From positions 1-34,153 of the IMG/VR virus record IMGVR_UViG_3300025164_001175: a stretch of DNA of 34,153 nt; one strand, given 5' to 3'. The notes under the pieces are model-generated. The model had not been told where the DNA came from. It ran no database searches and worked only from the letters and a program-made list of their open reading frames with translations. The position numbers were made by a program, and so were the translations under genes. This document shows, one piece after another, positions 1 to 19,239 of the stretch. The stretch's first letter is position 1, and the number at the start of each line of letters is the position of its first letter. Source of the DNA: a virus.

Positions 1-11
1 ATAATCAAAGA

Positions 12-251
12 TTGTATACAGCTAAATGGGAAGTTCTTCAATTTATCAAGAGAATTCCAAAAGGAACTTATTATACAGTAACATATACATTGGATGAAAA
101 GGGACCACTTTTGGTGGTTAAAAAATTAATAATGATCGTAGTAAATATCAAAACGAAAGAGGATATGGGAGCTTGTTTTTTACCAAAAACTTGGGATGGA
201 AAAAGGGCGAGGAGATGCGTGACCGTGCCAATATATGAAGATATACAATAA
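12..251 (+). CDS. hypothetical protein, possibly cut by the window edge
   Basis: I do not recognise this 79-residue protein. The frame is open to the first base of the window, so TTG at 12 may be an internal codon of a longer gene. The C-terminal half (WDGKRARRCVTVPIYEDI) is basic with one cysteine. No membrane segment or known motif is visible. It is followed by a short A+T-rich gap with a repeated regulatory-looking motif. Confidence 0.5.
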   Translation: MYTAKWEVLQFIKRIPKGTYYTVTYTLDEKGPLLVVKKLIMIVVNIKTKEDMGACFLPKTWDGKRARRCVTVPIYEDIQ

Positions 252-268
252 ATATTATAAATTTTAGG

Positions 269-298
269 GTGAAACGACAAGAAATCCTGTAGTATATA
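269..298 (+). promoter_or_regulatory. candidate promoter or leader element, copy 1
   Basis: GTGAAA (269-274) and TATATA (293-298) are 18 bases apart. The 16-mer GAAATCCTGTAGTATA (281-296) recurs exactly at 15753-15768. Both copies have TGAAA six bases upstream and end just before a Shine-Dalgarno sequence. It could be a phage promoter or an RNA-level operator. The placement fits either. Confidence 0.45.
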
Positions 299-316
299 TA
301 GGGAGGGCGATATATA

Positions 317-577
317 GTGCACGTTACGATGTATACTTGGGAAGACCTCATCCTTTTTCTAGCTTGGGGATTAGTGTGCTATTTATGGGGGGCTGGGGAA
401 AGAAAATACAAACGAAGAAGTTACCAACCTAGAATGCCTACTAAAATGCCTAACGTTCCAACCCCTCCGCCACCCCCTACTCCCCTTAACAATATGTGCA
501 AAGGGGGATGGAATTCCCCTCCTACTACTCCAAGACCAACTAATTCTCCCCCCGGACAAGGAAGGAGAGATAATTGA
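317..577 (+). CDS. small single-pass membrane protein with proline-rich tail
   Basis: This is an 86-residue protein with a GTG start 10 bases after GGGAGGG (300-306); ATG at 329 is an alternative. Residues about 9-26 (DLILFLAWGLVCYLWGAG) form one hydrophobic helix. A basic patch (ERKYKRR) follows, then a proline/threonine-rich tail with PPPPPTP. The layout suggests a membrane-anchored protein with a flexible cytoplasmic tail, such as a small lysis or membrane-interaction protein, but no family is recognised. Its stop overlaps a short open frame starting at TTG 574 (MTKREYMDGFEK). Confidence 0.55.
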   Translation: MHVTMYTWEDLILFLAWGLVCYLWGAGERKYKRRSYQPRMPTKMPNVPTPPPPPTPLNNMCKGGWNSPPTTPRPTNSPPGQGRRDN

Positions 578-633
578 CCAAACGAGAATATATGGATGGG
601 TTTGAGAAATAAAATACGATGATAGGGCTTTAA

Positions 634-1389
634 ATGAAAAGAATATCTGGGGTATATATGATTCTTAATAGAATCAACGGAAAGAAATATATAGGATCTT
701 CTAAAGACGTGTATAACAGATGGAATCAACATTTGACGGAACTTCGTAAGGGAAAACATACTAAACATATACAAGCAGCTTATTATAAATATGGGGAAGA
801 ATCTTTTGTATTTATGGTAATAGAAATAATTAAATATTTAGATCAATTAACTACTAGGGAACAATATTGGAAAGACTTTTATAAATCATATGATCGAATA
901 TATGGATATGATATTTGTAGATATGCTAGTTCTACTTTGGGGTATAAGCATACAGAAAAAACTAAGAAAAAAATAAGTTTAGCTCATAATGGAAAAATAA
1001 ATTCAGAAGAAACGAGGGGGAAAATAAGTTTAGCTAATAAAGGAGAAAATCACCCTTTATTTGGGAAACACCATACAGAAGAAACTAGAAAAAGAATGAG
1101 TTTAATACATATAGGAAAACATCCTTCTGAAGAAACTAAAGCAAAAATAGGTTTGGCCAATAAAGGAAAACATATTCTTTCGGAGGAGTTAAAAAGAAAA
1201 TTAAGTTTAGCTAATAAAGGAAAACATCTTTCTAAAGAACATAAAGAAAAAATAAGTTTAGCTTTAAAAGGAAAACCTCTTTCTGAGGAGACTAAGAAAA
1301 AAATGAGTTTATCCGGTAAAGGAAAACCAAAATCTGAAGAAACTAAAATAAAGATGAGAATAGCAGCTAAGAAAAGAGCGAATCATTGA
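634..1389 (+). CDS. GIY-YIG homing endonuclease with NUMOD3 repeats (SegE-like)
   Basis: This is a free-standing homing endonuclease of 251 residues. The N-terminal GIY-YIG nuclease domain (about 1-95) shows GVYMILNRINGKKYIGSS, the conserved Arg in VYNRW, and a later Glu in TTREQYWKDFY; these are the expected catalytic positions. From about residue 105 there are seven or so tandem NUMOD3 DNA-binding repeats of the form SEETKxKISLANKGKH. The domains look intact. Such genes cut a related phage genome lacking the insertion and are copied in by repair. It lies between a membrane-protein gene and a small acidic-protein gene. The start is ATG at 634, with only a weak ribosome site. Confidence 0.9.
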   Translation: MKRISGVYMILNRINGKKYIGSSKDVYNRWNQHLTELRKGKHTKHIQAAYYKYGEESFVFMVIEIIKYLDQLTTREQYWKDFYKSYDRIYGYDICRYASSTLGYKHTEKTKKKISLAHNGKINSEETRGKISLANKGENHPLFGKHHTEETRKRMSLIHIGKHPSEETKAKIGLANKGKHILSEELKRKLSLANKGKHLSKEHKEKISLALKGKPLSEETKKKMSLSGKGKPKSEETKIKMRIAAKKRANH

Positions 1390-1694
1390 CCAAATACGAA
1401 TTGACTTTAAATATTGAAGTTTCTAATATGGAAGAATGGAAATTTGTAAGCGATTTGGCTATGGCCGAAGATAGTAAACATTGGTGGGCAGCGGGGACAT
1501 ATGATGACGAAGGAATTATGTATAGGGATATGGAATGGTTATTCGATACTAAGTTAGAGGCGTTAGCATTTAAAAGAAAATTGAAAAAAGCATTTTTCAG
1601 ATATTGGTATAAAATAGAAATTGATATTGACGAATTTGATGAAAATGAATTGGAAGAAGAAATAGGAGATATTAAAATAAATGAAATTATTTAA
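1386..1694 (+). CDS. hypothetical acidic protein
   Basis: This 102-residue protein starts at TTG (1386), overlapping the stop of the homing endonuclease gene by four bases. It is rich in Trp/Phe/Tyr in its first half (EDSKHWWAAGTYDDEG) and strongly acidic at the C-terminus (DIDEFDENELEEEIGD). No family is recognised. The last 14 bases overlap the start of the SPL-like gene. The first ten bases of the reading context (ATTGACCAAA) repeat at 573-582, upstream of the homing endonuclease. Confidence 0.6.
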   Translation: MTKYELTLNIEVSNMEEWKFVSDLAMAEDSKHWWAAGTYDDEGIMYRDMEWLFDTKLEALAFKRKLKKAFFRYWYKIEIDIDEFDENELEEEIGDIKINEII

Positions 1695-2232
1695 CGGATA
1701 TTGGGAGTTGCGTGAACTGGTGAAGAACATCATCCCAAGAAGAGGAATGCTGGACTTTCTAGAAAAACATAAAGGACTAGTTAAAGAAAAGGGTAGAAAA
1801 ATTGGATACAAGGAATTTTCATTCGATAGTGAAAAATTTGAAATAAAACAAAGATTGCTCAATAAAGATGAAATTACTTCTTTCCTTGAAGTGAGCCTAA
1901 GAAAAAATCATTGCCCCATGCCCCTTAATGCAGATGTTTATGATGCACTATACTGCATAGCAAAAGGTCAATTGATTACTACTAAAACAGGATTCAAAAA
2001 AATTGAAGATATAAAGGTGGGGGATGAGATAGCCTCATATAACGAATCGACCAAAAAAGTAGAGTTTACCCAAGTTTTGTTATCATCTTCTTCAGAAAAA
2101 ACTAATTTAGTAGAAATAGAAACTGAAAAAGGACTTCTAGTTGTTACGGAAGATCACCAAATTTTTACCAAACGAGGGTGGGTAGAAGCCGGGCAACTTA
2201 ATGAAGACGACTTACTTTTGGAGATATATTAA
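1681..2232 (+). CDS. SPL-like radical SAM protein, N-terminal part fused to N-intein
   Basis: This is the first half of a fractured gene. Residues 1-91 are the N-extein, ending ADVYDALY. Residues 92-183 are an N-intein: Cys92 as the splice nucleophile, block A (CIAKGQLITTKTGFKKI), then block B with the TxxH motif (VTEDHQIFT). The frame stops (TAA 2230-2232) shortly after block B, where split inteins of the gp41/NrdJ type also end. The missing C-intein and the rest of the enzyme are encoded from 3367, so the polypeptides should be joined by trans-splicing. The spliced enzyme would be about 473 residues. The N-extein alone carries no cluster cysteines. Confidence 0.85.
   Translation: MKLFNGYWELRELVKNIIPRRGMLDFLEKHKGLVKEKGRKIGYKEFSFDSEKFEIKQRLLNKDEITSFLEVSLRKNHCPMPLNADVYDALYCIAKGQLITTKTGFKKIEDIKVGDEIASYNESTKKVEFTQVLLSSSSEKTNLVEIETEKGLLVVTEDHQIFTKRGWVEAGQLNEDDLLLEIY
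1954..2229 (+). other. split intein 1, N-terminal half (92 aa)
   Basis: It runs from the TGC codon of Cys1 (1954-1956) to the last sense codon. Block A and the TEDH of block B are present. At 92 residues, the length is close to known N-halves of naturally split inteins. The partner is at 3367-3486. Confidence 0.88.
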
Positions 2233-3377
2233 TGGGTAAACGAGGACCAGCCAAAGGCTGCATTCCTTGGAATAAAGGGAAAACAGGGGTGCAAGCAGCT
2301 TGGAATAAAGGTATTCCAAGGACAGAAAAAGAAAAAGAAGCTATCAGAAATGGAATATCAGAAGAATCCCGACAAATTCAATCTGAAATAAAGAAAGAAC
2401 AATGGAAGCAAGGAAAATATGATAGTATGTTCGGAGATACTAATCCTGCCTGCAGAGAAGAAGTTAAGAAAAAAATAGGAGATGCTAATAGAAGAAGAAT
2501 TTGTTCAGAACAGACTAGGGAAAGGATATCAAAATCCCGGACGGGAAAACCGGGGGCAATTTGGACAAAGAAAATGAAAGAAAATGCCTCTGTTAGAATG
2601 AAAGAAAATAATCCTATGAAAGATGAAGAGATTAAAAATAAAAGTCATGAATCTCTAATGAAAACATTAAATGATCCTAATTTTGTTCACCCAAATAAAG
2701 GTAGATTAAGGCCTGATTTATTAGGAAAACCTAGCAAAATGTCTGAGGAAGCCAAGGATATAGCTTCTGCTAGAATGAAGGAAGATAACCCCATGAAGGT
2801 TCTGGAGATAAGAAATAGAATGATCGAGTCTTATAAAAGAACTTGTGCTTTAGATGGTTATGTACATCCTAATAAAGGAAGAGAACGTTTGGATGCTAAG
2901 AATAGAATGTTATCTAATAACAATCCCATGAAGGATCCAGAAACTGCTAGACTAGTTTGGGCTAAAGCAAAAGAAACCATAAAGAAAAACGGGGGGATAT
3001 CCGAAGGGCAAAGGAAACTTTATGAATATTTAGATTCTATGGGATTTAAATACGAACCGGAGTGCTTCTTTCAATTGGGACAATTAGATTTTTCTTATAT
3101 TCTTGCCGATGCTTATTTGCCGGATTTTAAAATAATTATAGAATACGATGGTTATAGTGACCATTATTCAGAAGAGGGGATAAAAAGAGATCGTAAAAGA
3201 GATGATTATGTAGATAAATTATTTCAAATATCAGTCATAAGAATAGACACTAATTCTATTTTTGCTAAAGATGTGGATAAAACTATTTTAAAAGCCATTG
3301 ACGAACTTAAAACAGTTTCTTCCCCTAAAACTATTTACATTGGAAAAATCAGGGAGATTTTAATAAATGCAAACTAG
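2232..3377 (+). CDS. free-standing EDxHD (Vsr-like) homing endonuclease inside split intein
   Basis: This 381-residue gene sits exactly between the two halves of the split intein. The start codon overlaps the stop of the N-half (TAATG), and the end overlaps the start of the C-half by 11 bases. Residues about 1-250 hold NUMOD3-like repeats and WNKG motifs (CIPWNKGKTG, AAWNKGIPRTE, KENNPMKD). Residues about 256-370 are a Vsr/DUF559-like PD-(D/E)xK-fold nuclease: DAYLPDFKIIIEYDG, then SDHY and KRDRKRDDY, matching the E-D-x-H-D pattern. Free-standing genes of this family between split-intein halves are known from phage-like metagenomic sequences. It would be expected to cut intein-free alleles of the same radical SAM gene. 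Confidence 0.85.
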   Translation: MGKRGPAKGCIPWNKGKTGVQAAWNKGIPRTEKEKEAIRNGISEESRQIQSEIKKEQWKQGKYDSMFGDTNPACREEVKKKIGDANRRRICSEQTRERISKSRTGKPGAIWTKKMKENASVRMKENNPMKDEEIKNKSHESLMKTLNDPNFVHPNKGRLRPDLLGKPSKMSEEAKDIASARMKEDNPMKVLEIRNRMIESYKRTCALDGYVHPNKGRERLDAKNRMLSNNNPMKDPETARLVWAKAKETIKKNGGISEGQRKLYEYLDSMGFKYEPECFFQLGQLDFSYILADAYLPDFKIIIEYDGYSDHYSEEGIKRDRKRDDYVDKLFQISVIRIDTNSIFAKDVDKTILKAIDELKTVSSPKTIYIGKIREILINAN

Positions 3378-3486
3378 ATTTAAGAAAATAAAAAGTCTAC
3401 GGAAAATTAGTAAACCTACTGCTGTATTTGATTTAACTGTAGATAGAAATAGCAATTTCTTTGCATCTTCCCAATTAGTTCATAAT
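3367..3486 (+). other. split intein 1, C-terminal half (40 aa)
   Basis: It has its own ATG and carries block F and the terminal His-Asn (LVHN). The +1 residue is the cysteine codon TGC at 3487-3489, which is also Cys1 of the radical SAM motif. Confidence 0.88.
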
Positions 3487-5067
3487 TGCAGCTACGCATG
3501 CAAATATTGTTTACCTCCTAAAACCAAAATACAAATGTGGAATGGTATAAAAAAGAATATAGAAAAAATTAAAGAGGGAGATGAGGTTGTTTCTCTAAAT
3601 ACTTATAATAGTTTATTGATAGAAGAAAAATCAATCGTTCAAAAAATAATGAGCAGAGCTACCGAAGACTTAATAGTTATCAAAACTAAAAATAATATTC
3701 TAAAGTTAACCCCAGAGCATACAATATTTACTACTAGGGGTTGGATAGAAGCAAATAAATTAAATATGCATGATATGATGATATCCCCATATTATTCTAA
3801 ATCTAATAGTGTTTCTAAATGGGAATGGAGTAGAATTGAATCTATATCTAGAGCAAAAACTAGTGGTAAAAAAATAGTCTATAATTTTGAGTGTCAACCT
3901 AATAATAATTATTTTGCAGAGGGAATTCTTGTACATAATTGTTTTGCGGACTCTTTTCGCAGTTCTCTTTATACTTCATTCTTTGATAACCCCAAGGAAA
4001 TTGGAATACGCCACTGCCGTCCAGAATACTTTCGAGCAGAGATGGATAAATTAATGCCATATAGGGGAAAGAAAATAGATGGCCCAGAATTAAATAAAGC
4101 AATCAGTCTACAAATTCCCATCCGTCTAGGAATTCGATTTGAAGATTTTCTTCCTATCGAAGCTCAAAAAGGAATCAGTTTGAATTTTATGCAATATTTA
4201 TCTGATATTGCATATCCCATAATGGTGAACACTAAGTCTGCGTTAATCGGAAGAGAAGATTACGTTAGGGCACTAGCAGATAATAAAGGTGGTGCTGCTG
4301 TTCATATGACGGCGATATCTTCAGATGGTATTCTAAATAAAAAGTTGGAACCTGGCGCCCCGTCTTTTGAGAAACGCATGCTTGCTGTAAAAGCCCTTAC
4401 GGATGCAGGGGTTAGGGTTGTCGCAAGGATCGAGCCATTCATGGTCTTTGTGAACGATGATCCTTATTATGTTCAAAAATGGATACAGGGAGTCAGGGAA
4501 GCAGGGATTAAACATATCACTTTTGATACATATAGCTACTCCGCTTCTGCCCCTGGAGTTGAACGCCAAATGGAAATGGAAGGAATAGATTTTCGTAGAA
4601 TGTTTTTGCTAATGTCAGATAGTCAGTGGTTGGGTTCTTTGATTTTAGGAGAATTTATGAAAATGATGAAATCCGAGGGATTTTCAACTTCCACCTTCGA
4701 TTTCGGGAATTCCCCGATCAATAATGATGAAATCTGCTGCTCCGTATCAGATGTTTACTTACCCCTGGGTGGAGGGTTCTCCTACGGGAACAACATGATT
4801 GCTGCTAGGTTTGTTCGGGATAACGGACCCCACCCAGTAACGTGGGGGAAATATAACGCTTTCGTAGAGGAACGTGGGGGGTGGTTATCAGAAACCTTAA
4901 TGCAAGAAGTAAAGAATTCGTGGAATCTTGGGGGACATCAAGCATATCAGGTGGATTGGGCCCAGGGAATTGAACCTTATGGAAGAGATCGAGAAGGAAA
5001 TATAGTTTGGAGATATATTGAAAGTTCTGACTTCCGCTTAGAAATGTTAGAAAATTTGGTCCGGTGA
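3367..5067 (+). CDS. SPL-like radical SAM protein: C-intein, extein, mini-intein, C-extein
   Basis: This 566-residue precursor has four parts. Residues 1-40 are the C-intein of the split intein, with block F (AVFDLTVDRNSNFFA) and block G (LVHN). Residues 41-47 are a seven-residue extein, CSYACKY. Residues 48-191 are a contiguous mini-intein. Residues 192-566 are the C-extein, beginning CFADSF. After both splices the motif reads CSYACKYCFA, a radical SAM CxxxCxxC cluster site. The C-extein has SPL-family (COG1533, DNA repair photolyase) signatures: VNTKSALIGREDYV, then KLEPGAPSFEKRM and AGVRVVARIEP. The likely role is radical-based repair of pyrimidine photoproducts or a related SAM reaction; the exact substrate is inferred. 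Confidence 0.82.
   Translation: MQTRFKKIKSLRKISKPTAVFDLTVDRNSNFFASSQLVHNCSYACKYCLPPKTKIQMWNGIKKNIEKIKEGDEVVSLNTYNSLLIEEKSIVQKIMSRATEDLIVIKTKNNILKLTPEHTIFTTRGWIEANKLNMHDMMISPYYSKSNSVSKWEWSRIESISRAKTSGKKIVYNFECQPNNNYFAEGILVHNCFADSFRSSLYTSFFDNPKEIGIRHCRPEYFRAEMDKLMPYRGKKIDGPELNKAISLQIPIRLGIRFEDFLPIEAQKGISLNFMQYLSDIAYPIMVNTKSALIGREDYVRALADNKGGAAVHMTAISSDGILNKKLEPGAPSFEKRMLAVKALTDAGVRVVARIEPFMVFVNDDPYYVQKWIQGVREAGIKHITFDTYSYSASAPGVERQMEMEGIDFRRMFLLMSDSQWLGSLILGEFMKMMKSEGFSTSTFDFGNSPINNDEICCSVSDVYLPLGGGFSYGNNMIAARFVRDNGPHPVTWGKYNAFVEERGGWLSETLMQEVKNSWNLGGHQAYQVDWAQGIEPYGRDREGNIVWRYIESSDFRLEMLENLVR
3508..3939 (+). other. intein 2, contiguous mini-intein (144 aa)
   Basis: It starts at Cys (TGT 3508-3510, CLPPKTKIQMWNG). 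Block B is LKLTPEHTIFTTRGW with the TxxH pattern, block F is KIVYNFECQPNNNYFAEG, and it ends VHN before the +1 Cys at 3940-3942. There is no endonuclease domain. It is separated from split intein 1 by only 21 bases of extein and interrupts the motif before its third cysteine. Confidence 0.88.
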
Positions 5068-5447
5068 AAAATAAAGGATTCTTTTCAAGACACTGGAGCG
5101 AATCTGACGAAAGAGTACTCAAATATTTGGGGGACTTTTTCAAAGATCCTCCGATTAAACCAGATTATAAAGCTGGATACGACGTTACGGTGGGAGATGC
5201 AAAGATAGAAATAAAATCGTGCCAAGAATGGATACATTCAGAAAGTGTTAAGGGAAAATGGAAGAGAAGAAGAGGGAGATTCCACTTTGATAAGGGAACA
5301 GAGGCCGATATGATTTTATTTGTATTAGTCAAAGAATCGGGGGAGTTGGAATTTGCTATCCGATTTCCAGAACAATATGGAGTACGGAAATTGAAAATAC
5401 CTATAACGATATTATGGAATAAAGTATTTACAGAGGCGAGGATATGA
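5064..5447 (+). CDS. PD-(D/E)xK nuclease-like hypothetical protein
   Basis: This 127-residue protein has a GTG start (5064) overlapping the TGA of the radical SAM gene by four bases. The central part reads YDVTVGDAKIEIKSCQEW, a D-x(n)-E-x-K arrangement typical of PD-(D/E)xK nuclease folds. It is followed by RRGRFHFDKGTEADMILFVL, which resembles the last core strands of restriction-endonuclease-like proteins. The assignment is by motif only. A small DNA endonuclease involved in repair, recombination or host DNA breakdown is plausible. Its stop overlaps the next start. Confidence 0.55.
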   Translation: MKNKGFFSRHWSESDERVLKYLGDFFKDPPIKPDYKAGYDVTVGDAKIEIKSCQEWIHSESVKGKWKRRRGRFHFDKGTEADMILFVLVKESGELEFAIRFPEQYGVRKLKIPITILWNKVFTEARI

Positions 5448-5824
5448 ATTTACGTTGTTTTTGGGGAATTCATAAGCCTGTTGCTACCAATCCTAAAAGG
5501 GGGATATTAATAGGGGGAACCCATTGTAAAAGATGTGGGAGTATTCTAACTAATCCCATAGAATGGCCTAACCCCCTTCCTTCGCAAACTATTCAACCTT
5601 TTTGTGAAAACTCTAAATGCCCTATATGTCATTCTAGCCCTATATATACCTATTTTTGCTTAGGAATACGTTGGGATTTAGAAACAAAATATCCGTATTA
5701 TATACCAAATGAAAATTTAAAATGCCCCTACGGAGAAAAAGGGCATCTCCATCGTAGTTGTTCTTGTAAATATAAGTGGGTGGAAAAAACAGCCATAGAT
5801 GCCGAATTAACGGAAGGCGAATAA
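5444..5824 (+). CDS. cysteine-rich zinc-ribbon-like hypothetical protein
   Basis: This 126-residue protein has several metal-binding pairs: CKRCG near residue 28, CENSKCPICH near 55, and CPYGEKGHLHRSCSCKYKW near 93. The pattern suggests two or three zinc knuckles or ribbons. No enzymatic motif is visible. It overlaps the previous gene by four bases and abuts the next small gene, so it is co-transcribed with them. The function is unknown. Confidence 0.6.
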   Translation: MNLRCFWGIHKPVATNPKRGILIGGTHCKRCGSILTNPIEWPNPLPSQTIQPFCENSKCPICHSSPIYTYFCLGIRWDLETKYPYYIPNENLKCPYGEKGHLHRSCSCKYKWVEKTAIDAELTEGE

Positions 5825-5992
5825 ATGGATTATACAAAAAAATTGATCAAGGCTGCTAAAGATTATTTAAGGGCATCTACTTGCAATTGTAAATATAATG
5901 GCGGTTGCCCACAAGAAGTTTTGCAATCTTTAATAGATGAATATAAACCTCCTCTAATTATTCCTACCAAGAAAAAGAAAGGTTCCAAATGA
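5825..5992 (+). CDS. small cysteine-containing hypothetical protein (55 aa)
   Basis: The ATG at 5825 directly follows the TAA of the upstream gene and is preceded by GGAAGGCG. The stop overlaps the next gene as ATGA (5989-5992). The product begins MDYTKKLIKAAKDYL, has a CNCKYNGGC cluster in the middle and a lysine-rich end (TKKKKGSK). No family is recognised. The tight coupling on both sides supports translation. Confidence 0.55.
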   Translation: MDYTKKLIKAAKDYLRASTCNCKYNGGCPQEVLQSLIDEYKPPLIIPTKKKKGSK

Positions 5993-6660
5993 AACTGAAA
6001 ATTGTTAGTCCTACAGGATTGGTCAAAGATGTTAAAGTGGTTAATGCAGAAACCAACGAAATGCTTGATGATGTTAAGGAATTTACCATCCATGCCAAAT
6101 CCAATATGGGATTAGTAGAAGTTTCAATTAAATTTTCTCGTTTAGCTTTTGAAGTAACTGCGGAAAAAAAGAAAAGAACAAAGAAACCCAAATATCCTGA
6201 CTCTACTGCATATTCTAAAAGTTGTATAGAGGCCAACAAAAAAACAGTTATGGATGGGGAGGGGAGAGTTGATTTAGACTACGTGGAAAATCATGGGGTG
6301 AATCCTAATGATCGCCTCAGTTGGTATATGTGGCGATATTTTATCAAAATATATTCTGAAAATAAATTAACTAAAATAAAAGTTCCAGATATTGTAGATT
6401 TCATTAGAAGAGAATTTGGGCCAGATCAATCAGCAATTGAATTTAAGTTTGACAGGACGACTGCAAATCATTGCATAAATAAATTTTGTTTCATTGGACT
6501 ATTAAATAAACATAAAAAATCAGATGAATGCTTTTATACTTTCTCCAACTCCGTAAAAAGAAGGGGGTTAGAGTGGTTTTTACAAGGGAATAAATATATG
6601 AAAGGCCATTTTCAATCGGGAGCAGAGGGGTTTTTTAATCTATTGGAAATAAAGGAATAA
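5989..6660 (+). CDS. hypothetical protein, target of a homing-endonuclease insertion
   Basis: This 223-residue protein is of unknown function. Residues about 1-55 look like a small beta-rich domain. A lysine-rich linker (EKKKRTKKPK) follows, then a helical C-terminal region (about 95-205) that could be a winged-helix DNA-binding domain. The last 19 residues (KGHFQSGAEGFFNLLEIKE) have a second, diverged coding copy at 6881-6946, beyond a decayed homing endonuclease gene. This suggests that the present 3' end arrived with the mobile gene and displaced the original. Confidence 0.6.
   Translation: MKLKIVSPTGLVKDVKVVNAETNEMLDDVKEFTIHAKSNMGLVEVSIKFSRLAFEVTAEKKKRTKKPKYPDSTAYSKSCIEANKKTVMDGEGRVDLDYVENHGVNPNDRLSWYMWRYFIKIYSENKLTKIKVPDIVDFIRREFGPDQSAIEFKFDRTTANHCINKFCFIGLLNKHKKSDECFYTFSNSVKRRGLEWFLQGNKYMKGHFQSGAEGFFNLLEIKE
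6601..6660 (+). repeat. duplicated gene end, copy 1 (in frame)
   Basis: It encodes KGHFQSGAEGFFNLLEIKE, the current end of the upstream gene. It matches copy 2 at 6881-6946 at most positions over about 45 bases, for example GGYCATTTYCAATCGG. Confidence 0.75.
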
Positions 6661-6665
6661 AAATA

Positions 6666-6869
6666 ATGGCTTCTGGGATATATGTAATAGTTAATAAAAT
6701 AAATAGAATGATGCACGAACCTTGGAGCAAAGAAAGAAAGACCAAATTATCGGAATTCAAAATAAAATATTATCAAGAACATCCTATGAGCAAAGAAACT
6801 AGACAAAAAATGTCAGAAGCTAAAATAGAATATCATAGAAAAATGAGGGAGAAAAAAATTGAAAAATGA
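6666..6869 (+). pseudogene. degenerate GIY-YIG/NUMOD3 homing endonuclease remnant
   Basis: This 67-residue frame starts MASGIYVIVNKINR, the first strand of a GIY-YIG domain. It then jumps directly to NUMOD3-like repeats (PWSKERKTKLSEFK and MSKETRQKMSEAK). The YIG strand, catalytic arginine and glutamate are all missing, so it cannot be an active nuclease of this family. Compare the intact gene at 634-1389. It probably arose by internal deletion. It is preceded by AAAGGA and may still be translated as a short DNA-binding peptide. Confidence 0.75.
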
Positions 6870-6880
6870 ACTAAAAATAG

Positions 6881-6946
6881 AGAGGTCATTTCCAATCGGA
6901 CACACAAGGATTATTCAATCTACAGGATGTTACAAATGAATCTTAA
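6881..6946 (+). pseudogene. orphan 3' end of the 5989 gene (duplicated gene end, copy 2)
   Basis: Read from AGA at 6881, the frame encodes RGHFQSDTQGLFNLQDVT followed by Asn-Glu-Ser and TAA. This is clearly homologous to the end of the upstream gene but has no start of its own; an in-frame TAG precedes it at 6878. It looks like the original C-terminus left behind when a homing endonuclease gene inserted with its own copy. It overlaps the start of the next gene. Confidence 0.7.
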
Positions 6947-7166
6947 AAAAGAAGGAAAAGATTTAGTCCAACGGGGGGTTAAATTGGGGAAATCTTTTGT
7001 ATTAACAATTATATTATTATTGCAATTGGCCATTCAAGTTTGTATACTATTCTTTACTGTATGGATAACCGTATTTACCAAGGGGAAGGAAATTGCAGAT
7101 AGAAAAACATTTGAGATATCCAAGGGATCTACAGTTCCTATGACTCTATTTCCAAGGGGGAATTGA
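6936..7166 (+). CDS. small membrane protein
   Basis: I chose ATG 6936 (MNLKKEGKDLVQ) over ATG 6927 because AGGA at 6925-6927 then lies at a normal distance. Residues about 18-48 (FVLTIILLLQLAIQVCILFF and TVWITVF) form one long or two short membrane helices, preceded by a basic amphipathic segment. The C-terminal tail ends TVPMTLFPRGN. The function is unknown. A short phage membrane protein of the holin or anti-host type is possible but unproven. Confidence 0.55.
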   Translation: MNLKKEGKDLVQRGVKLGKSFVLTIILLLQLAIQVCILFFTVWITVFTKGKEIADRKTFEISKGSTVPMTLFPRGN

Positions 7167-7167
7167 A

Positions 7168-7998
7168 TTGGGACTTCGAAATGAATTAGAGGTTGAAAGG
7201 GTATTCACTTACGGAGTTGCTTTGGAACAGGGGGGTACTCAAAAAAACGCTGTATTCTGTTGGGAAAATATCATTTATATTATGAACTCCGATAAGACTA
7301 TACTACTTCGGTTTGAAACATCGGTTAATGAATTCAAAGACCCCATTAGATTTTTCTTGAGCGATTATGATTCCCCAAATTTTACTGCGGACGGAAGTAA
7401 TATAACTTTCCTTCAAAAAGGGGAGGAATTCATACGTAGCAAGAGATGCCGAATCCCCAATCAAACTTTTCAAGAAGTTGAAGAATTGTTTTATAAATTT
7501 TATAGTCCTGATAAAATGAAATGGAAAATTTCCTTTAGCAAATCTTCGTTGGATCTCTTGGACGAGAATTTATCGCATATTGAATTTGTAACTAAAGGGG
7601 GGGAACTAAAAATACTCCAACGAGATATCTATGTCGGATCTCTAATCCAACTCGAAAGAAAAATGGAAATGGAGGGCCTCGGCCTAACAGAACCAGAAGA
7701 TGTTCTTCCAGATTCTCTTTCCCCCATGGGAATGAGGACTGGTGATTTCTTGGCACTATTTAATTTCAATGAGAAGGTAGACATTTATTTTCCAGAAGAA
7801 CTGCAATACTTTATAATTGAGGGATTGCATAATAATATATCAGGGGTTATTGCGGGGTGCATTTATGACGACTGCGGGACAATAGCTGATTTAGGGGAGG
7901 TTATGCATGGGCGGAAAAAGTCGGAAAACGGGGAGTATATCCAAAAAGTTAGTCGAACGGTTGCTGAGCCAATCCTCAAAAGGAGGAAAATCATCTAA
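7168..7998 (+). CDS. hypothetical protein
   Basis: This 276-residue protein starts at TTG 7168, one base after the upstream stop, with AAGGGGGAA in front. It is a mixed acidic protein with no recognised motif. A CIYDDCG segment near residue 231 contains two cysteines. The last 92 bases overlap the well-started gene at 7907, so the annotated C-terminus (about 30 residues, basic) lies in a doubly coding stretch. No signal peptide or membrane segment is visible. Confidence 0.55.
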   Translation: MGLRNELEVERVFTYGVALEQGGTQKNAVFCWENIIYIMNSDKTILLRFETSVNEFKDPIRFFLSDYDSPNFTADGSNITFLQKGEEFIRSKRCRIPNQTFQEVEELFYKFYSPDKMKWKISFSKSSLDLLDENLSHIEFVTKGGELKILQRDIYVGSLIQLERKMEMEGLGLTEPEDVLPDSLSPMGMRTGDFLALFNFNEKVDIYFPEELQYFIIEGLHNNISGVIAGCIYDDCGTIADLGEVMHGRKKSENGEYIQKVSRTVAEPILKRRKII

Positions 7999-8113
7999 GT
8001 CGGGGGTTTCTCCAAAGGGATTATTGGATAAGGGGGGACTTGATTGGACGAAGGATTTTCCTGGGGATGAGGAAAGAAAGAAACGCGAAGCCGAGGGAGG
8101 GGGAAATAAATGA
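7907..8113 (+). CDS. small basic hypothetical protein
   Basis: This 68-residue protein has an ATG at 7907 behind GGGGAGG (7893-7899). It is rich in Lys, Ser and Gly (GGKSRKTGSISKK, SSKGGKSSKSG). It overlaps the end of the upstream frame by 92 bases and shares ATGA with the next gene (8110-8113). It is probably disordered and nucleic-acid binding. No family is recognised. Confidence 0.5.
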   Translation: MGGKSRKTGSISKKLVERLLSQSSKGGKSSKSGVSPKGLLDKGGLDWTKDFPGDEERKKREAEGGGNK

Positions 8114-8553
8114 ATCCCGACGATATGCTCACAGGACGCGAGATGGACGCGCTGGTGGCGGAGAAGATCATGGGGTCTGTGCCATGCGACGGATGGAGTC
8201 GCTTTCATATAGGCGAGATGATGAATGACATGAAGTGTGAGCATGAAATGGGCAAGTGTTTCCCAAAGAAAGCTGGGCCTCCGATGTATTCCACCTCCAT
8301 TTCCGCTGCGTGGCAGGTCATGGAGCATTTCAGACAAAACCAATGGAAAGTAAGCGTTATTGGTAATGAATGGTATGACGGAGCGTCGTGGATTTGTGTT
8401 ATGAGAGACGCGATAGGCGAAGAGAGGGGAACCGGGATCGACAAAAAGTCATGTACTGTCGTTGATGGTAAGCAGGGATGGGATGAACCGTCCGCCCCTC
8501 TCGCCATCTGCCGCGCCGCGCTGAAGACGGTGGGAAAAAATGAGACTTTCTAA
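8110..8553 (+). CDS. phage ABA-sandwich domain protein
   Basis: This 147-residue protein matches the pattern of the small phage ABA-sandwich family. It has an N-terminal helix with LTGREMDALVAEKIMG, a middle segment with YSTSISAAWQVMEHFR, and the conserved C-terminal APLAICRAALKTVG. The molecular role of the family is not established. The gene is visibly richer in G+C than its neighbours (for example GCGCTGGTGGCGGAGAAG), which suggests recent acquisition. Its start overlaps the upstream stop (ATGA), and its end overlaps the next gene by 14 bases. Confidence 0.75.
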   Translation: MNPDDMLTGREMDALVAEKIMGSVPCDGWSRFHIGEMMNDMKCEHEMGKCFPKKAGPPMYSTSISAAWQVMEHFRQNQWKVSVIGNEWYDGASWICVMRDAIGEERGTGIDKKSCTVVDGKQGWDEPSAPLAICRAALKTVGKNETF

Positions 8554-8752
8554 TTGTACCCACGAAGTACCTCCCTTTGCCCTATGTGGGATATGCGAAC
8601 CAGAGGAATTGAAGTCAATACTTAAAGAGATAAATCGACTATGGGGAAAGTTAGATGGCCCATGCCCCTATTGCAAAGTAAATGGTCCCTGCAAACATTG
8701 GTCTGGATGTGGATGGTCCGCCTCGTTTAAAACTGTAGAGGAAAAAATATGA
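8540..8752 (+). CDS. small zinc-finger-like hypothetical protein
   Basis: This 70-residue protein has two likely metal sites: CTHEVPPFALCGIC near the N-terminus, and CPYCKVNGPCKHWSGCGW near the C-terminus. The family and function are unknown. It overlaps genes on both sides by 14 and 4 bases. Confidence 0.55.
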   Translation: MRLSNCTHEVPPFALCGICEPEELKSILKEINRLWGKLDGPCPYCKVNGPCKHWSGCGWSASFKTVEEKI

Positions 8753-9006
8753 ACGAAATTGAGTTTGTTAAAAGTGTTCAAACGCTAGAAGTTAGAGAAA
8801 ACGATCTAATGATTATCAAGATTCCTTACAAAATTAAACCAGAAAATTCTGAAAAAATTAGAAAACTAGCAGAAGATAATTTGCCTATAGGAATGAAAGG
8901 AAAAGTAAAAATATTCATCCTTGAAGAAGGGGTTGATATAGGAATTATACGAGCAGAGGAGGATAACCATAAATGTGTCAAGAATGTAGTTGGGAAAATT
9001 TCATAG
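8749..9006 (+). CDS. hypothetical protein
   Basis: This 85-residue protein has a regular strand-helix-strand look: LMIIKIPYKIKPENSEKIRK, a helix, then GKVKIFILEEGVDIGII. It could be a small alpha/beta fold. ATG at 8749 overlaps the preceding stop (ATGA). The last 34 bases overlap the next gene. No family is recognised. Confidence 0.5.
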   Translation: MNEIEFVKSVQTLEVRENDLMIIKIPYKIKPENSEKIRKLAEDNLPIGMKGKVKIFILEEGVDIGIIRAEEDNHKCVKNVVGKIS

Positions 9007-9164
9007 AAGAAATAAATGATTATTTATCAGACCCAGATTACGATTGGGCCGAAGAAACGCTGTCGGGGATTGCAAATACTGTAGAAGAAAATAGTCATGT
9101 AACGGATAGGCAAAAAGAAGCGGTGGAGAATATCGTTGAGGCTGTTGAAAGGAAAAGTCGGTGA
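8973..9164 (+). CDS. small acidic hypothetical phage protein
   Basis: This 63-residue protein has an ATG about ten bases after GGAGGA. It starts MCQECSW and continues as a helical acidic protein (DYLSDPDYDWAEETLSGIA, then TDRQKEAVENI). Short proteins with this D-x-D-W-A...GI...T-x-x-Q-x-x-A-x-x-N-I pattern occur in many phages next to replication genes. The function is unknown. Confidence 0.5.
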   Translation: MCQECSWENFIEEINDYLSDPDYDWAEETLSGIANTVEENSHVTDRQKEAVENIVEAVERKSR

Positions 9165-9967
9165 AAAGTAATTACTTAAAATTGCTTGAGAAATATAAAA
9201 TTACTCCAACTTTTCCATGCAGTCAAGAATATTTTGAACGATCTGGAATTGAAGAGCAAACTTGTGGAGATTATGTATATTGGAAACAACACGAGTGGTT
9301 CATAGGGCCGCCAATAAATTCACTAACGGGGGAGTTAGTTAAAAGCCCTCCTTCAGATTGGATTATTCCCATGAACAAAATTTGGGCTTGTTTTCATAAT
9401 TGGGAAATGTCCTCAGATTATAAGAAGGAATTTTTATCCTTTGAGTATATCTATGATCCCAAAAACTTTTTGAAAATGGAAGGGGGTCGTTGGTCTATCT
9501 TTAGGAAAAATATTCGCAAATTCCCTGGCCGATATGGGAATGCCCCCCTACGATATATTGAAGCAACCTCTGATCATGAGGAGGATTTGAAAAAGTTATT
9601 TCTGGAATGGGTTGGTACCAAGGGGGAAGATCAAGAAATACATGATGATGAAGTTATGCTAAATTACCTTTTTCATGGTAATAATAGAAAAATTTTGGTA
9701 GATAAAAATAATTATATTTTGGGGGTAAATATATGGGATTTGGGGTACTCCCAAATTTATTTCCGGTTCAATTTCTCCCGAAATATCAAATTTTTAAACG
9801 AATATTTGAGATATATTTTCTATACAGATCCTATCATATTGAACCAAAATAAATTGGTTAATGATGGGGGATCTCTAGATAACAAAAATCTTGAGGCATT
9901 TAAGGACAAACTTTGCCCTTTGGAAAAAAGGGAAATTTTTTCTTATATCAAAATGGAGGAAATATGA
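9161..9967 (+). CDS. DUF2156-like protein (possible GNAT-fold acyl/aminoacyltransferase)
   Basis: This 268-residue protein has a GTG start overlapping the upstream stop. Two segments resemble the DUF2156/phosphatidylglycerol lysyltransferase C-terminal family. FEYIYDPKNFLKMEGGRW with FRKNIRKF corresponds to the family's 'Y-tt-L-G-k-KRN-in-F' segment. LVNDGGSLDNKNLEAFKDKL corresponds to the 'iN-e-D-G--gLR--K' end. Cellular relatives transfer aminoacyl or acyl groups. Here the substrate is unknown and the family match is tentative. No membrane domain is present. Confidence 0.42.
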   Translation: MKSNYLKLLEKYKITPTFPCSQEYFERSGIEEQTCGDYVYWKQHEWFIGPPINSLTGELVKSPPSDWIIPMNKIWACFHNWEMSSDYKKEFLSFEYIYDPKNFLKMEGGRWSIFRKNIRKFPGRYGNAPLRYIEATSDHEEDLKKLFLEWVGTKGEDQEIHDDEVMLNYLFHGNNRKILVDKNNYILGVNIWDLGYSQIYFRFNFSRNIKFLNEYLRYIFYTDPIILNQNKLVNDGGSLDNKNLEAFKDKLCPLEKREIFSYIKMEEI

Positions 9968-10272
9968 AACCTATAGATTTTTCTGAGAAAACAAAAGATT
10001 TACAAAAACCAGCAGAAATGACAGATAAAGAATGTTCCCCACTTCCCATTTGGAATGACGGACAAATTTGTATATCTTGTTGGAAAGCAGATTGGAAAGA
10101 AAGATTATCTATTTTATTTTTCGGAAAAATTTGGATCCGAGTTTATTCAGGGGTAACTCAACCACCTATATATTTAGAAGGAACAAAAACACCATTTGCT
10201 ACTCCTATGATATTAAATGTTAAAAAGTTAAAAGATGCCTGGAATAAAACTTTTATGGGGAGGGAAAAATGA
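9964..10272 (+). CDS. conserved phage hypothetical protein
   Basis: I chose ATG 9964 (MKPIDFSEKTKD) because it follows GGAGGAA. The longer frame from 9913 only runs through the previous gene. This 102-residue protein contains ISCWKADWKERLSILFFGKI, WIRVYSGVTQPPIYLE and a short tail. The 'CWK-x-x-W-x-E-R-L...G-x-(I/V)-W...QPP' pattern recurs in small proteins of many phages, of unknown function. It directly precedes the sliding clamp gene (ATGA overlap). Confidence 0.65.
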   Translation: MKPIDFSEKTKDLQKPAEMTDKECSPLPIWNDGQICISCWKADWKERLSILFFGKIWIRVYSGVTQPPIYLEGTKTPFATPMILNVKKLKDAWNKTFMGREK

Positions 10273-11333
10273 AAAAAGTTGATCTGTTAAATGCTATCAA
10301 ATCTGTAATGATGGGGATTGACAAATCCAGTGCCATCGGATCAGATTTTATTCTATTCGATGAAAACTGGGTCCGGTCGTACAAGGAGGATATCAGTTGC
10401 TCCTTCCCCCTTGAAACGGGAATCAGAACAGCTGTTAGAGCAGAAGAATTGTACAAGGTTTTATCCAAAATGGAAGCCGAAGAAATTGATATCAAGATGA
10501 ATGACGACGGTAAATTTCAAGTTAAGGGGGGGAAGACTACTCTCAAAATGAACCCTCTTCAAAAAGAACAGATTACCAGTTCTCTAGAGAGGGCTTGGGC
10601 TGTTCAAACAGATGGATTGGAATGGTTCTATCTCCCCAAAGACTTCCAAGTGGGAATGGAACTTTGTTCATTCAGCGCAGGGACGGGGCCAGCTTTGGGA
10701 CCTTTGGCAGGGGTTCATTTCTTCGAAAATAAAGCAGTTTCTACAGACAATTACCGGGTGTCCATCTATACCATGTTGGAAGCAGTCACTAGCGCATTTA
10801 CCCTCCCAACCAAAACGGTGGAAGGGCTTATGAAATTAGAAGAGAACTTTGAAATTATTGCTTTATCAAAGGCATGGGCTCATTTCTCTAACGAAAGGGG
10901 AGCTATCTATAGTTCAAGGGTACTAGCAGGGGATTACCCTTCCAAGAAGATTGTGGGACTGTTCGAAGTTATGAAATTTGATATGACTGCTGATCCTCTT
11001 GAGTTTCCCAAGGGATTGGAGGCTCCGTTGGAAAGGGCTAAAATCCTGGCTGGTGCTAGTGGAGATGGATGGGATGCTTTATCAAAAGTTTCTCTTTCCT
11101 ATTCCAAGGGAGTTTTAGAAATTCGGGCGGGGAAAGAAGCAGGGGAAATTGTTGACGGAGTTGATTGGAAAAAAGGTCATTTTGAAGAAGGAATTGAACT
11201 TAAAGTACAACCTGACTTTTTCAAAAAAATTTTAGGAATCACCCGTCAATTCCGTATGAGCGGAGTTAAGAAATCATTGTTGTTCTCTTCGGAGAAATTT
11301 AGTCATATTATGGTTGCATCAGTAGGAAAATAG
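10269..11333 (+). CDS. dnaN: DnaN-like DNA polymerase sliding clamp
   Basis: This 354-residue protein has the usual length of bacterial beta clamps. The middle domain has AVSTDNYRVSIYTML, equivalent to the ATDGHRLA segment. It is followed by YSSRVLAGDYPSKKI, equivalent to the SRLI-G-FP segment that precedes the last domain. The C-terminal third ends in beta strands without a typical M-P-(M/V)-R-L tail. A ring-shaped dimer would tether the polymerase encoded at 12204 and be loaded by the AAA+ protein at 15786. It overlaps the upstream gene (ATGA). Confidence 0.82.
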   Translation: MKKVDLLNAIKSVMMGIDKSSAIGSDFILFDENWVRSYKEDISCSFPLETGIRTAVRAEELYKVLSKMEAEEIDIKMNDDGKFQVKGGKTTLKMNPLQKEQITSSLERAWAVQTDGLEWFYLPKDFQVGMELCSFSAGTGPALGPLAGVHFFENKAVSTDNYRVSIYTMLEAVTSAFTLPTKTVEGLMKLEENFEIIALSKAWAHFSNERGAIYSSRVLAGDYPSKKIVGLFEVMKFDMTADPLEFPKGLEAPLERAKILAGASGDGWDALSKVSLSYSKGVLEIRAGKEAGEIVDGVDWKKGHFEEGIELKVQPDFFKKILGITRQFRMSGVKKSLLFSSEKFSHIMVASVGK

Positions 11334-12203: not shown

Positions 12204-15200
12204 ATGCGAGGGTTCTTTGATATACCAACTCCTGCTAAAGCAGCCCAACCAAAAACCCCCCGAGGGGCCGTAGGTTGTGACGCATGTGGGCTGAAAAATC
12301 GTACCCTATCCCCAAATATTCCCCCCACTGGTGAAGGAAAACTTAAAACCTTCATATTGGGGGAAGCTAGTGGTGAGCGAGAAGATCAACTGAACAATCA
12401 ATTTATAGGAGAAACTGGCCATTTTCTTAGAAAATGCTTTAGGATTATGGGGTACGATCTAGATAGAGATTTCAGAAAAACTAATGCCGTAGCGTGTTTT
12501 GTTTATCATCAAGTTCCTATATTTACTATAGATGGGTATAAACCTGTATCTAAAGTTAAGGTGGGGGATTTAGTATTAACCCATAAAGGAAGATTTAGAA
12601 AGGTAATATCTAGAATTCAAGATCTTCCCAAGCACCTTAAAAGAATTACTGAAGAAGTTTACAAAATTAAAGTGGGGAGGATCAATTCTCCTTATAAAAA
12701 TAGAAGTTTGAAAGAATTTGTTGTTACCTCTTCACATAGATTTTTATCTAAAATAGACAATAAAGAAAATTGGGTTTATGCACGTCAATTAAATAAAGGA
12801 GATAGAATAATAGCCATAGGAGAAAAATGTATAATTTGTGGGGGTATTTTTTTTAAAACTAATTCTTATGGGGAAAATATTTGTTCTTTAATCTGCGAAA
12901 GTAAATACTTAGAGGATAAATATGGAGAAAAACTTAGGGAGAAAGCCCATGAAAAAGTAAGAAGATCGGCTAAACTGGGCGTTTGGGGGAAGATGACGGG
13001 GGGGAAAGTAACTAAGGAAGCTAAGCTAAAAGGCAGAATAAAATGGGCCAAAATTAAAGAATCTGAAAATAAATTATCTAGTATATCTCCTATCACAATA
13101 GGATTTGGAGAGGGGTCTTTAGCAAATTATTTATCCGATAAAAAAATACAATTCATTTCTCAATTTGCCATTGAAACATTAAATTATGATTTCTTTTTGC
13201 CAAAGTATAATTTGCTAGTGGAAGTAGATAATCCGGATAGGAACGGACAAAAATCAGTTAAAAATGATCAAACGAAAAAAAACATACTAGCTAAAAATTA
13301 TAATTATGAATTACTCCGAGTTTCCTCTAAAAATCCTATTTCCCCAATAGAAAGATTAATAAAGAATCATAATCAAGAATATCAATTCACCGAAGTAGAA
13401 ATAGTTTCTATAGAAAAAATTCCTATAGGAAAAAGAATGTCTTTAACTTGCATAGAAGTAGAAGAGGACAATAGTTTTATAGCAAATAGAGTAATTCATC
13501 ATAATTGCCGGCCAACCAACGAGAAGGGGAGCAACCGAACTCCGACTACACGGGAAATCAAAGCTTGCGAACCTAACTGGCGAGCAGCGATACAACAATT
13601 TCAACCGAAGTATATACTACTTTTTGGCGCAAAAGCAGTAGAGGCGTTTTTCATGAATAGGACTCAACCTATTTCAACAAATTTATCTATTGGGAGATGG
13701 AGAAAACTTTGCATTCCTGATGTTCAAACGAAGGCTTGGGTTATCCCACTATACCATCCCTCTTTCGTTATCAGAAATCCTGACGCAGAGAACATTTTCA
13801 AATTAGACCTCCAATGGGCAATGGAACAAATAACTTCAAATTTACCAGAAATAGAAGAAATTGATTATTCCCAAAAGATAAAATGTCTAACCAATACAGA
13901 TGAAATTTTAGATATTCTCAAAACGATTAAAGAACAAAAACCAACGATAGCATTTGATTATGAAACTACTGGCCTCCGTCCCTACTATCCCGGCCACTCT
14001 ATTGTGTCTACGGCTGTCGCTATCTACGGGGAGGACATAGCCTATGCCTGGCCCTACTCCTACCCCGGAGCGTGGCAATCAGGACAGTTAGAAGCGTTGA
14101 ATAAGGCATGGCGAGGGGTACTCTCCGACCCAGAAATATTAAAAGTAGCCCAGAATATTCAGATGGAGCATCCGTGGAGTAAAATCATAATTGGAGAAGA
14201 GCCAAAAGGATGGTATTGGGATACAATGGTTTGTTCTCATATCGTAGATGAACGAGCAGGATTTACAGGGCTAGATTTTCAAACGTTTATAAATTGGGGG
14301 TATGAATACGGAGGGGATATTTCTAAATTCAAAAAGGCCCTTCCGGGAACTAAATTTAATACTATGCAGAAGTGCCCATTAAATGAGCTATTGAAATATA
14401 ACGGATTAGATGCTTATTTCACGATGAGATTGGCGGAACGGCAATGGGATTTCATGGATAAGGGGAATAAGGAATCCCTCGCCGCTTCTAAAGCCTACGA
14501 TTTATTTCATAAAGGAGTTCTTGCTTTTTCTGATATGGAAATGGAAGGGATCTCAGTAAACGTAGAATATTATCAAGATACCCAAATAAAATTAGAAAAA
14601 AGACTAGATTTCCTAGAAAAACAATTACTTCGCTCTCCAGAAGCAAAATTATTTAAATCTAAAACAGGAAGAGAAATAAAATTAACTTCTTCTGATGATA
14701 TGAAAAAACTTTTGTTTGAATTCTTAGGAGTAAAATCCATCAAAAAAACGGAGGGTGGTGGGGACTCCGTAGATAAAGACGTTGTGGAAAGTTTGGATAT
14801 ACCCTTCGCAAAAGATTTGGTTAAAAAAAGAAAATTGGATAAATTGAAGACTACTTATATTGATGGAATTTTAGGTTTACAAGTCAATAAAAAATTACAT
14901 CCTAATTCTAATTTACATTTAGTAAGAACAGGCAGAAGTTCTATGGACTCCCCCAATATGCAAAACATTCCCAAAAGAGATAAAGAATCTATGACTATGG
15001 TAAGAAATGGAATAATTCCCTCTCCAGGAAACCTATTAGCTGAGGCTGATTATGGGGGGCATGAAGTCGGCATTTTAGCTTGCTATTCCAAAGACCCTGT
15101 ATTAATGAAAGAACGTATAGATGGAGCGGATATTCATCAAGAGTGGGCAGATTTTTTACAACTAAAGGGATTCGATGCAAAAATAATGAGATTCGATGCC

Positions 15201-17635: not shown

Positions 17636-17700
17636 GGCGGCTTCTAAGAACATGTTAGCTAACACTAACATTAAGTCCTTCAGGCTGCGTCCCAGCCTGT
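17608..17700 (-). ncRNA. candidate omega RNA (reRNA) of TnpB
   Basis: In this family the guide RNA is made from the 3' end of tnpB and the right end of the element. Here a perfect 7-base-pair hairpin (CAGGCTG 17681-17687 with CAGCCTG 17693-17699, loop CGTCC) lies in the last codons of tnpB. The end palindrome (17621-17640) follows downstream. The guide would be the flanking phage sequence left of the element. The boundaries are inferred. Confidence 0.45.
17621..17640. repeat. candidate right-end hairpin of the IS
   Basis: CCGCC and GGCGG surround a ten-base loop (ACATAAATGA). It resembles the left-end hairpin in stem and in the GCCAC...TAAA core. Confidence 0.55.
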
Positions 17701-19178: not shown

Positions 19179-19239
19179 GTAAATTATTATAAGTTCGGCG
19201 AGTATATAAGTCAAGTTAATCGAAAGGAGGGAGTTTCCT

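Follow-up and report, generated by a model that had tools for sequence, protein, structure and literature searches.

Dassa et al. 2009 reportedly described fractured gp41 helicase, NrdJ and IMPDH genes that carry split inteins, with a free-standing endonuclease open reading frame (ORF) of a new family between the gene halves. We analyzed a 34-kb stretch of viral DNA, IMG/VR virus record IMGVR_UViG_3300025164_001175 (positions 1-34,153, hereafter the window), in which a gene for a radical SAM enzyme is laid out in the same manner. As in those fractured genes, there are two gene halves meeting at a split intein, an endonuclease ORF between them and intein halves of similar lengths. An earlier, sequence-only reading of the window had already likened layout and lengths to that system, and our results agree: both flanking ORFs carry intein halves, and NrdJ-1 and gp41-1 are among the matches of solved structure. 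The differences are that the host gene here encodes a radical SAM enzyme, that the break lies at a cluster cysteine, and that a second, contiguous intein is found seven residues away. Judged from its sequence, the locus very probably represents a mobile split-intein/homing-endonuclease cassette that fractures a phage radical SAM gene, the enzyme being rebuilt by trans-splicing.

Inteins are also known from settings that resemble parts of this arrangement. Pyrococcus abyssi MoaA is presumably a radical SAM enzyme with an intein in its cluster motif. According to the available text of one report, a native Cys-3/Cys1 disulphide can control the activity of this archaeal intein (PMC3922620); the second intein of our locus likewise has a Cys at -3 (CKY/C). 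The available description of the isolated phage vB_PaeM_MIJ3 mentions a putative PolB split intein with an HNH homing endonuclease ORF between the halves (PMC6892783); unlike here, the nuclease is of the HNH type, the intein starts with Ser and the host is a DNA polymerase gene. In Campylobacter phage IBB_35, inteins occur alongside six radical SAM genes, the inteins being described in other genes as far as the available text goes (PMC3322345). In the literature on inteins, radical SAM enzymes and fractured genes, with poor coverage of subscription journals, we found no radical SAM gene with a split intein. The arrangement itself is known from fractured genes. What seems to be new, set against a mostly open-access literature, is the radical SAM host gene, the cysteine-1 site, and the presence of trans- and cis-splicing inteins within one cluster motif. 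This would extend split-intein fractured genes to a metallo-enzyme, and one trans plus one cis event in a single eight-residue motif offers a natural test case for conditional splicing.

Three coupled ORFs and a split intein

The locus comprises three ORFs (Table 1). The N-half ends, as had been read from the letters alone, in a 92-residue N-intein that starts at nt 1954 and matches Pfam PT-HINT (E = 2.5e-9). Its stop overlaps the nuclease start in TAATG (2230-2234), an overlap that had likewise been recognized, and the C-half opens with the expected 40-residue C-intein, whose own ATG (3367) falls within the 3' end of the nuclease ORF and which ends in VHN directly before CSYACKY. By eye, purine-rich GGAG or GGGAG lies 5' of all three starts, at a rather far distance of ~12 nt for the N-half.

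The NCBIfam model intein_Cterm matches the C-half in two stretches, best at 20-41. When the two intein halves were joined, the similarity was well above chance level: Pfam Intein_splicing matched at 3e-14, and phmmer against the PDB gave 12 distinct chains with E no higher than 0.01, of which the three top-ranked (5e-11 to 1e-8) are inteins or intein-like. Solved matches include a bacterial intein-like domain (5e-11), the Spl DnaX mini-intein (1e-10), NrdJ-1 (1e-8) and gp41-1 (2e-4), and the joined intein aligns nearly end to end with solved mini-inteins, NrdJ-1 included. In the printed alignment the initial Met of the C-half pairs with a Met of NrdJ-1 that we take to be the first residue of the natural NrdJ-1 C-intein. 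All splicing residues are present as judged by eye, namely Cys1, TEDH in block B, the terminal HN and Cys at +1. The predicted block order A-B / F-G is consistent with the order in which models match the N part and the C part, the blocks themselves being assigned by eye. Net charge is -6 for the N-intein and +6 for the C-intein.

The joined intein matches 89 records of isolated phages. Among the matches listed, the best E-value (2e-12) belongs to uvsW of Salmonella phage S16 and related phages; the S16 N-intein is 44% identical to ours over query residues 1-90 (tblastn), and the S16 C-intein is 44% identical over 34 amino acids. The uvsW genes of S16 (L062 2814-5540) and PM2 (L063 2814-5546) are fractured by a split intein; their annotation lists DNA helicase genes separated by a hypothetical gene. 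Like the window locus, S16 uvsW consists of an N-half, an overlapping nuclease-like ORF (291 residues) and a C-half with its own start and a C-intein; PM2 is alike. The S16 middle ORF matches TnsA-like endonuclease (4.5e-4) and NUMOD3 (8.6e-4), both below the Pfam curated cut-offs; it is barely similar to the window nuclease (E = 0.006), and the host gene there is a helicase.

A frameshifted or chimeric contig could make a cis-splicing intein with an in-frame nuclease look split, and the window does stem from metagenomic assembly, with the N- and C-halves in one reading frame. Across the nuclease ORF, however, that frame contains 30 stops, against a mean of 26.0 obtained by synonymous resampling. 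Such a number is about the unconstrained level, and therefore the gene really is in two pieces, with no small error able to restore one ORF. In addition, positions 1-11064 are present at 100% identity in three IMG/VR records, although these assemblies are possibly not independent; a fourth record begins at 4854, within the C-half. A paralogue described below is laid out alike, and both its intein and its nuclease differ from those of the window locus. On the identical records and the stop count we rejected assembly error, to which we give very little credence.

Table 1. Features of the fractured radical SAM locus (window coordinates) and of the fractured paralogue (coordinates in L038)
Feature	Position	Strand	Description
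N-half ORF	1681-2232	+	91-residue extein and 92-residue N-intein; stop 2230-2232
N-extein	1681-1953	+	residues 1-91 of the radical SAM protein, ending ...CPMPLNADVYDALY; 66/91 identical to the uninterrupted L015 gene
N-intein of split intein	1954-2229	+	92 aa; block A CIAKGQLI, block B TEDHQIF (by eye)
Free-standing endonuclease ORF	2232-3377	+	381 aa; both ends overlap neighbouring ORFs
Endonuclease catalytic domain	2994-3314	+	~ residues 255-361; predicted Vsr/EDxHD fold (VIA-align)
C-half ORF	3367-5067	+	C-intein, CSYACKY, second intein, remaining extein
C-intein of split intein	3367-3486	+	40 aa, own ATG; blocks F (AVFDLTVDRNSNFFA) and G (LVHN/C), by eye
Extein heptapeptide CSYACKY	3487-3507	+	cysteines 1 and 2 of CX3CX2C; aligned with six distant homologues
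Second intein, contiguous mini-intein	3508-3939	+	144 aa, without endonuclease; directly before motif cysteine 3
C-extein	3940-5064	+	375 aa from CFADSF; stop 5065-5067
Paralogue N-half	8231-7824 (L038)	-	42 extein and 93 intein residues
Paralogue nuclease, EDxHD-like	7834-6854 (L038)	-	own ORF between the halves
Paralogue C-half	6869-5688 (L038)	-	39-residue C-intein

The insertion site and the radical SAM extein

Two records of one related virus, L015 and L012, carry the gene uninterrupted at cysteine 1 (DALS/CSYQCKYC), and in both the second intein occupies the position that it has in the window. The window gene shares 81-84% identity with theirs in the segments that match best and 64% over residues 1-119. 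The L015 gene is intact (615 amino acids); in L012 a net 11-nt tandem duplication at ~4200, which L015 is without, breaks the frame. The cassette measures 1,533 bp (1954-3486) and lies directly before the first motif cysteine codon. Given the uninterrupted allele, it is either there in full or absent altogether, and the extein lacks no residue. The sequence-only reading had proposed aligning the extein across the DALY/CSYACKY junction; the alignment is continuous both to distant homologues and to the L015/L012 allele, and the possibility of missing extein residues is ruled out by the L015 allele together with the six-homologue alignment.

The six distant homologues (L007-L010, L019 and the related virus's paralogue of this gene) are uninterrupted at both intein sites. 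The pattern that retrieved L007-L010 starts at cysteine 1 and extends to the Ala following cysteine 3. For these four, cysteine-3 inteins would therefore have gone unseen; cysteine-1 inteins would have been visible. Because the cysteine-1 site is uninterrupted in the related virus and in all six homologues, its empty state looks ancestral. The spliced extein keeps 16/16 of the columns invariant across the six homologues, and in alignment with them its motif is restored.

The best stretch for Pfam Intein_splicing in the C-half (59-191) corresponds to the second intein, which in L015 sits at the same site with 101 of 141 aligned residues identical, and so would be older than the divergence of the two viruses unless it spread between them. 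While the split intein had been recognized from the outset, this contiguous intein seven residues downstream had been overlooked. Both directly precede a motif cysteine, the split intein before cysteine 1 and the contiguous one before cysteine 3, and hence CX3CX2C would be complete only once one trans- and one cis-splicing reaction had taken place. The spliced extein has 473 amino acids, the size originally put forward; the figure is reached because the contiguous intein (3508-3939) is removed as well, a step missing from the original account.

By sequence, the extein appears to be a distant relative, and only that, of the PA0069 and Rv2578c radical SAM families. The NCBIfam PA0069 model matches the C-half at 2.6e-13 (49.7 bits, over a shorter stretch) and the spliced extein at 3.5e-14 over residues 92-292, where the score of 52.6 bits stands against a curated cut-off of 360; for the Rv2578c family the spliced extein scores 50.2 of 430 bits. 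NF038136, the intein-containing Rv2578c family, matches the spliced extein at 5.9e-10. Its score for the C-half is 71.2 of 700 bits, below the cut-off in 3/3 virus records, and the model also gives hits below cut-off in 10/14 control genomes. NF038136 proteins have a distantly related extein, but form one protein model with one contiguous intein. By profile coordinates and assuming ungapped ends, that intein would not be at cysteine 1, and its first residue (model position 76) would correspond to the cysteine-3 position, as for the second intein here and the paralogue's split intein.

The host enzyme had been called spore photoproduct lyase-like. This description is tenable for the predicted fold and not for the sequence: Pfam SPL (PF20903) reaches E = 0.056 in the L015 protein, with 12.8 bits against a cut-off of 27, and is absent from the matches of the spliced window extein at E <= 1. 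With a model of the L015 protein (mean pLDDT 54), used as the intact relative, Foldseek ranked spore photoproduct lyase first (3.7e-5), and VIA-align placed NifB (Z 13.7) and spore photoproduct lyase (Z 13.6) level. The motif, after splicing, and the modelled barrel fold would place the protein in the radical SAM superfamily.

Sequence searches of solved structures found no true relative of the extein. Among isolated phages, the C-extein had no match at 1e-5, and the spliced extein had five records at E <= 1, the best at 3e-6 with 21% identity. Thirty-five plasmid records contain distant radical SAM matches (best 6e-11; 22-28% identity among the matches listed). In genome contigs, relatives numbered 0 among 3 and 0 among 118 candidate stretches. 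A pattern for an intein C terminus directly before CxYxCxYC matched nine viral stretches, three of them from this virus; in the other six, with one match read in each (L060 has a second), none follows an intein, five having a stop within five codons upstream and L053 having 27 unrelated codons. A further radical SAM ORF is located in the window at 28210-28932 (Pfam Radical_SAM 6e-14, weak SPASM 0.014), with no intein model listed.

The nuclease and the proposed cassette

The middle ORF had been assigned to a NUMOD3/EDxHD endonuclease. The second half of this assignment is consistent with structural comparison, and the first did not hold up, no Pfam NUMOD3 match being found in the ORF at E <= 0.1. 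The first three rows of the VIA-align matches listed are Vsr 1cw0 (Z 11.7, rmsd 2.9, 107 aligned), I-Bth0305I 3r3p (Z 11.2, rmsd 3.4, 94 aligned) and Vsr 1vsr (Z 11.0), so the modelled nuclease domain would adopt the Vsr/EDxHD fold. Profiles of PHROG 9084 (homing endonuclease, 4.4e-5) and PHROG 9019 (resolvase, 2.7e-5) match the ORF, which also contains three NPMK repeats and is 35% identical over 174 amino acids to the nuclease of the fractured paralogue. E277, D293, E304, D306, H311 and D320 are invariant in three aligned nucleases and would include candidates for the catalytic E, D, H and D. No isolated phage matched the nuclease at 1e-3.

The nuclease is weakly similar (blastp E = 1e-4) to the neighbouring GIY-YIG ORF (634-1389), for which Pfam reports six NUMOD3 stretches. 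This ORF precedes the radical SAM gene in the window, and a related GIY-YIG gene follows it in the related virus (L015 3777-4481; L012 4860-5564). By eye, a short ORF at 6666-6869 of the window resembles an internally deleted GIY-YIG endonuclease, of which L015 has a longer copy from 6005.

The available text of one source (PMC3943268) includes EDxHD enzymes in its list of group I intron homing endonucleases, and the interruption might accordingly be removed at the RNA level by an intron of group I or II with the nuclease ORF inside it, the likeness to inteins being incidental. This we find hardly credible at all: there is no Rfam match at gathering score across the whole window, on which ground an RNA intron was rejected, and both halves match inteins strongly.

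For the mobile split-intein cassette we propose the following course. The N-half and C-half would bind each other, their inteins carrying charges of -6 and +6. Cys1, TEDH of block B and the terminal Asn would perform trans-splicing, in which Tyr91 would be ligated to the first motif cysteine, and the contiguous intein seven residues downstream would excise itself in cis. Both reactions would yield CSYACKYC, and only then could the 473-residue enzyme hold a 4Fe-4S cluster. Alleles that lack the cassette, as in L015, would be cleaved by the nuclease, after which repair would copy the cassette in.

Alternatively, a nuclease gene may have broken the radical SAM gene, the intein halves being leftovers and the pieces either decaying or working unspliced. 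Such cases are on record, since Aeh1 NrdA and the phage 25 DNA polymerase, both split with homing endonuclease genes at the break, work unspliced according to the available text of PMC2988022; the radical SAM gene may, moreover, be non-essential, its L012 copy being frameshifted. We consider this explanation improbable. The splicing residues are intact and a ribosome-binding-like sequence lies before each start (both by eye), both halves are open, all 16 invariant residues are kept and pairwise dN/dS is low. The break would also part the cluster cysteines from the N-terminal part of the protein, and the second intein would still occupy the cluster motif.

Several observations weigh against a mobile, trans-splicing cassette. 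We infer both splicing and homing from sequence. All cassette copies found belong to one virus at 100% identity, and selection on the split intein itself therefore cannot be measured. The dN/dS values between the window and L015 (Nei-Gojobori), 0.08 for the N-extein (dS 2.8, saturated), 0.075 for the C-extein (dS 1.4) and 0.16 for the second intein (dS 1.3), span time before the insertion, with dS near or at saturation. Joining the exteins brought no gain with Pfam Radical_SAM, which gave 20.8 bits for the spliced form versus 22.3 for the C-half (cut-off 29.5) in a match that misses the motif. As to the nuclease, its model has a mean pLDDT of 47 (better in the C-terminal domain, with block means of 49-77 over residues 261-370), the fourth VIA-align row is a Toxoplasma mitoribosome chain (9i05_Xr) tied at Z 11.0, Foldseek alone gave a best E of 0.08, which is not significant, with restriction-like nucleases among the top rows, and no nuclease turned up when solved chains were searched with a profile of this domain.

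A fractured paralogue and other inteins

The sequence-only reading reported one fractured radical SAM gene, which stands; a second one in the same virus was missing from it. A paralogue that lies upstream of the window, in a longer record of this virus (G001, 90 kb), is also fractured (Table 1). Its split intein lies at cysteine 3, and the same gene is uninterrupted in the related virus. The three inteins of the two genes (window split, window contiguous and paralogue split) are 33-38% identical. Splicing of the paralogue would give the motif CSAGCNWMC (CX3CX3C), which exceeds CSFPCHFC of the relative by one residue, the difference lying beside the insertion.

The net charge of the paralogue's split intein is +4/-6 (N/C), the reverse of the -6/+6 polarity in the window. 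Among 10 split inteins compared, which include the near relatives S16 and PM2 and likewise L074 and L085, eight combine a positive with a negative part, in equal numbers (four) for the two orientations; values for the remaining two are -5/0 and -10/-1. As both polarities occur among split inteins, their opposition in this genome could be due to chance. With their opposite charge polarity, the two split inteins of this genome are nevertheless candidate orthogonal tools. Two of the three cluster cysteines are +1 splicing nucleophiles. A doubtful reading built on this is that the two inteins of the window gene form a post-translational gate on cluster assembly, in which iron, redox state or metal binding at the motif would control the completion of trans- and cis-splicing and hence the time at which the virus switches the enzyme on, and that the paralogue's reversed polarity prevents cross-ligation of the two enzymes.

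Fractured loci were also found elsewhere. A scan with an N-intein profile yielded 81 relatives, of which the best 80 were considered; six rows are this virus, and in 13 of the remaining 74 a stop occurs no more than 150 codons from where the match begins. Six of the 13 (L072, L074, L075, L078, L085 and L097) have a C-intein-bearing ORF 0.65-0.9 kb downstream; none of their C-exteins starts with CxxxCxxC. As for the others, L086 runs off the contig, five are complete Hint domains ending in HNK or HNR (three identical), and the two downstream matches of L071 seem unlike C-inteins.

In the related virus (G004), a clamp-loader intein (L040 5399-7372, minus strand) holds a nuclease ORF in another frame (6070-6753). 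Over 227 codons the intein frame has 0 stops versus a mean of 19.3 by synonymous resampling (0/5,000 draws without stops), and in the overlap Pfam finds DUF559 (2.8e-12) in one frame and Intein_splicing (7e-10) in the other. Such an intein with an out-of-frame nuclease is a possible intermediate towards split inteins. An out-of-frame HNH ORF concealed in a phage methylase insertion is on record, and the available text gives no intein features for it (PMC11855218). The two viruses share the mini-intein; the sites that correspond to the two split inteins of the one and to the clamp-loader intein of the other are empty in the respective partner (by eye for the clamp loader). With these differing intein states, the steps of intein splitting are directly comparable in the pair.

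Further inteins were noted in both viruses. A uracil-DNA glycosylase/family A DNA polymerase fusion (window 12204-15728) has a contiguous intein in its glycosylase part (AVA/CFVYHQ...IHHN/CRP) with a nuclease-like region; the related virus has no intein at that site and a different one in the polymerase part. By eye, an NAD-epimerase-like gene (L038 3424-5691, minus strand) contains a large LAGLIDADG-like intein, and L012 and L015 have an uninterrupted 311-aa ORF. Elsewhere in the window (17655-19214, minus strand), two ORFs resemble, by eye, TnpB and TnpA of an IS200/IS605-type element.

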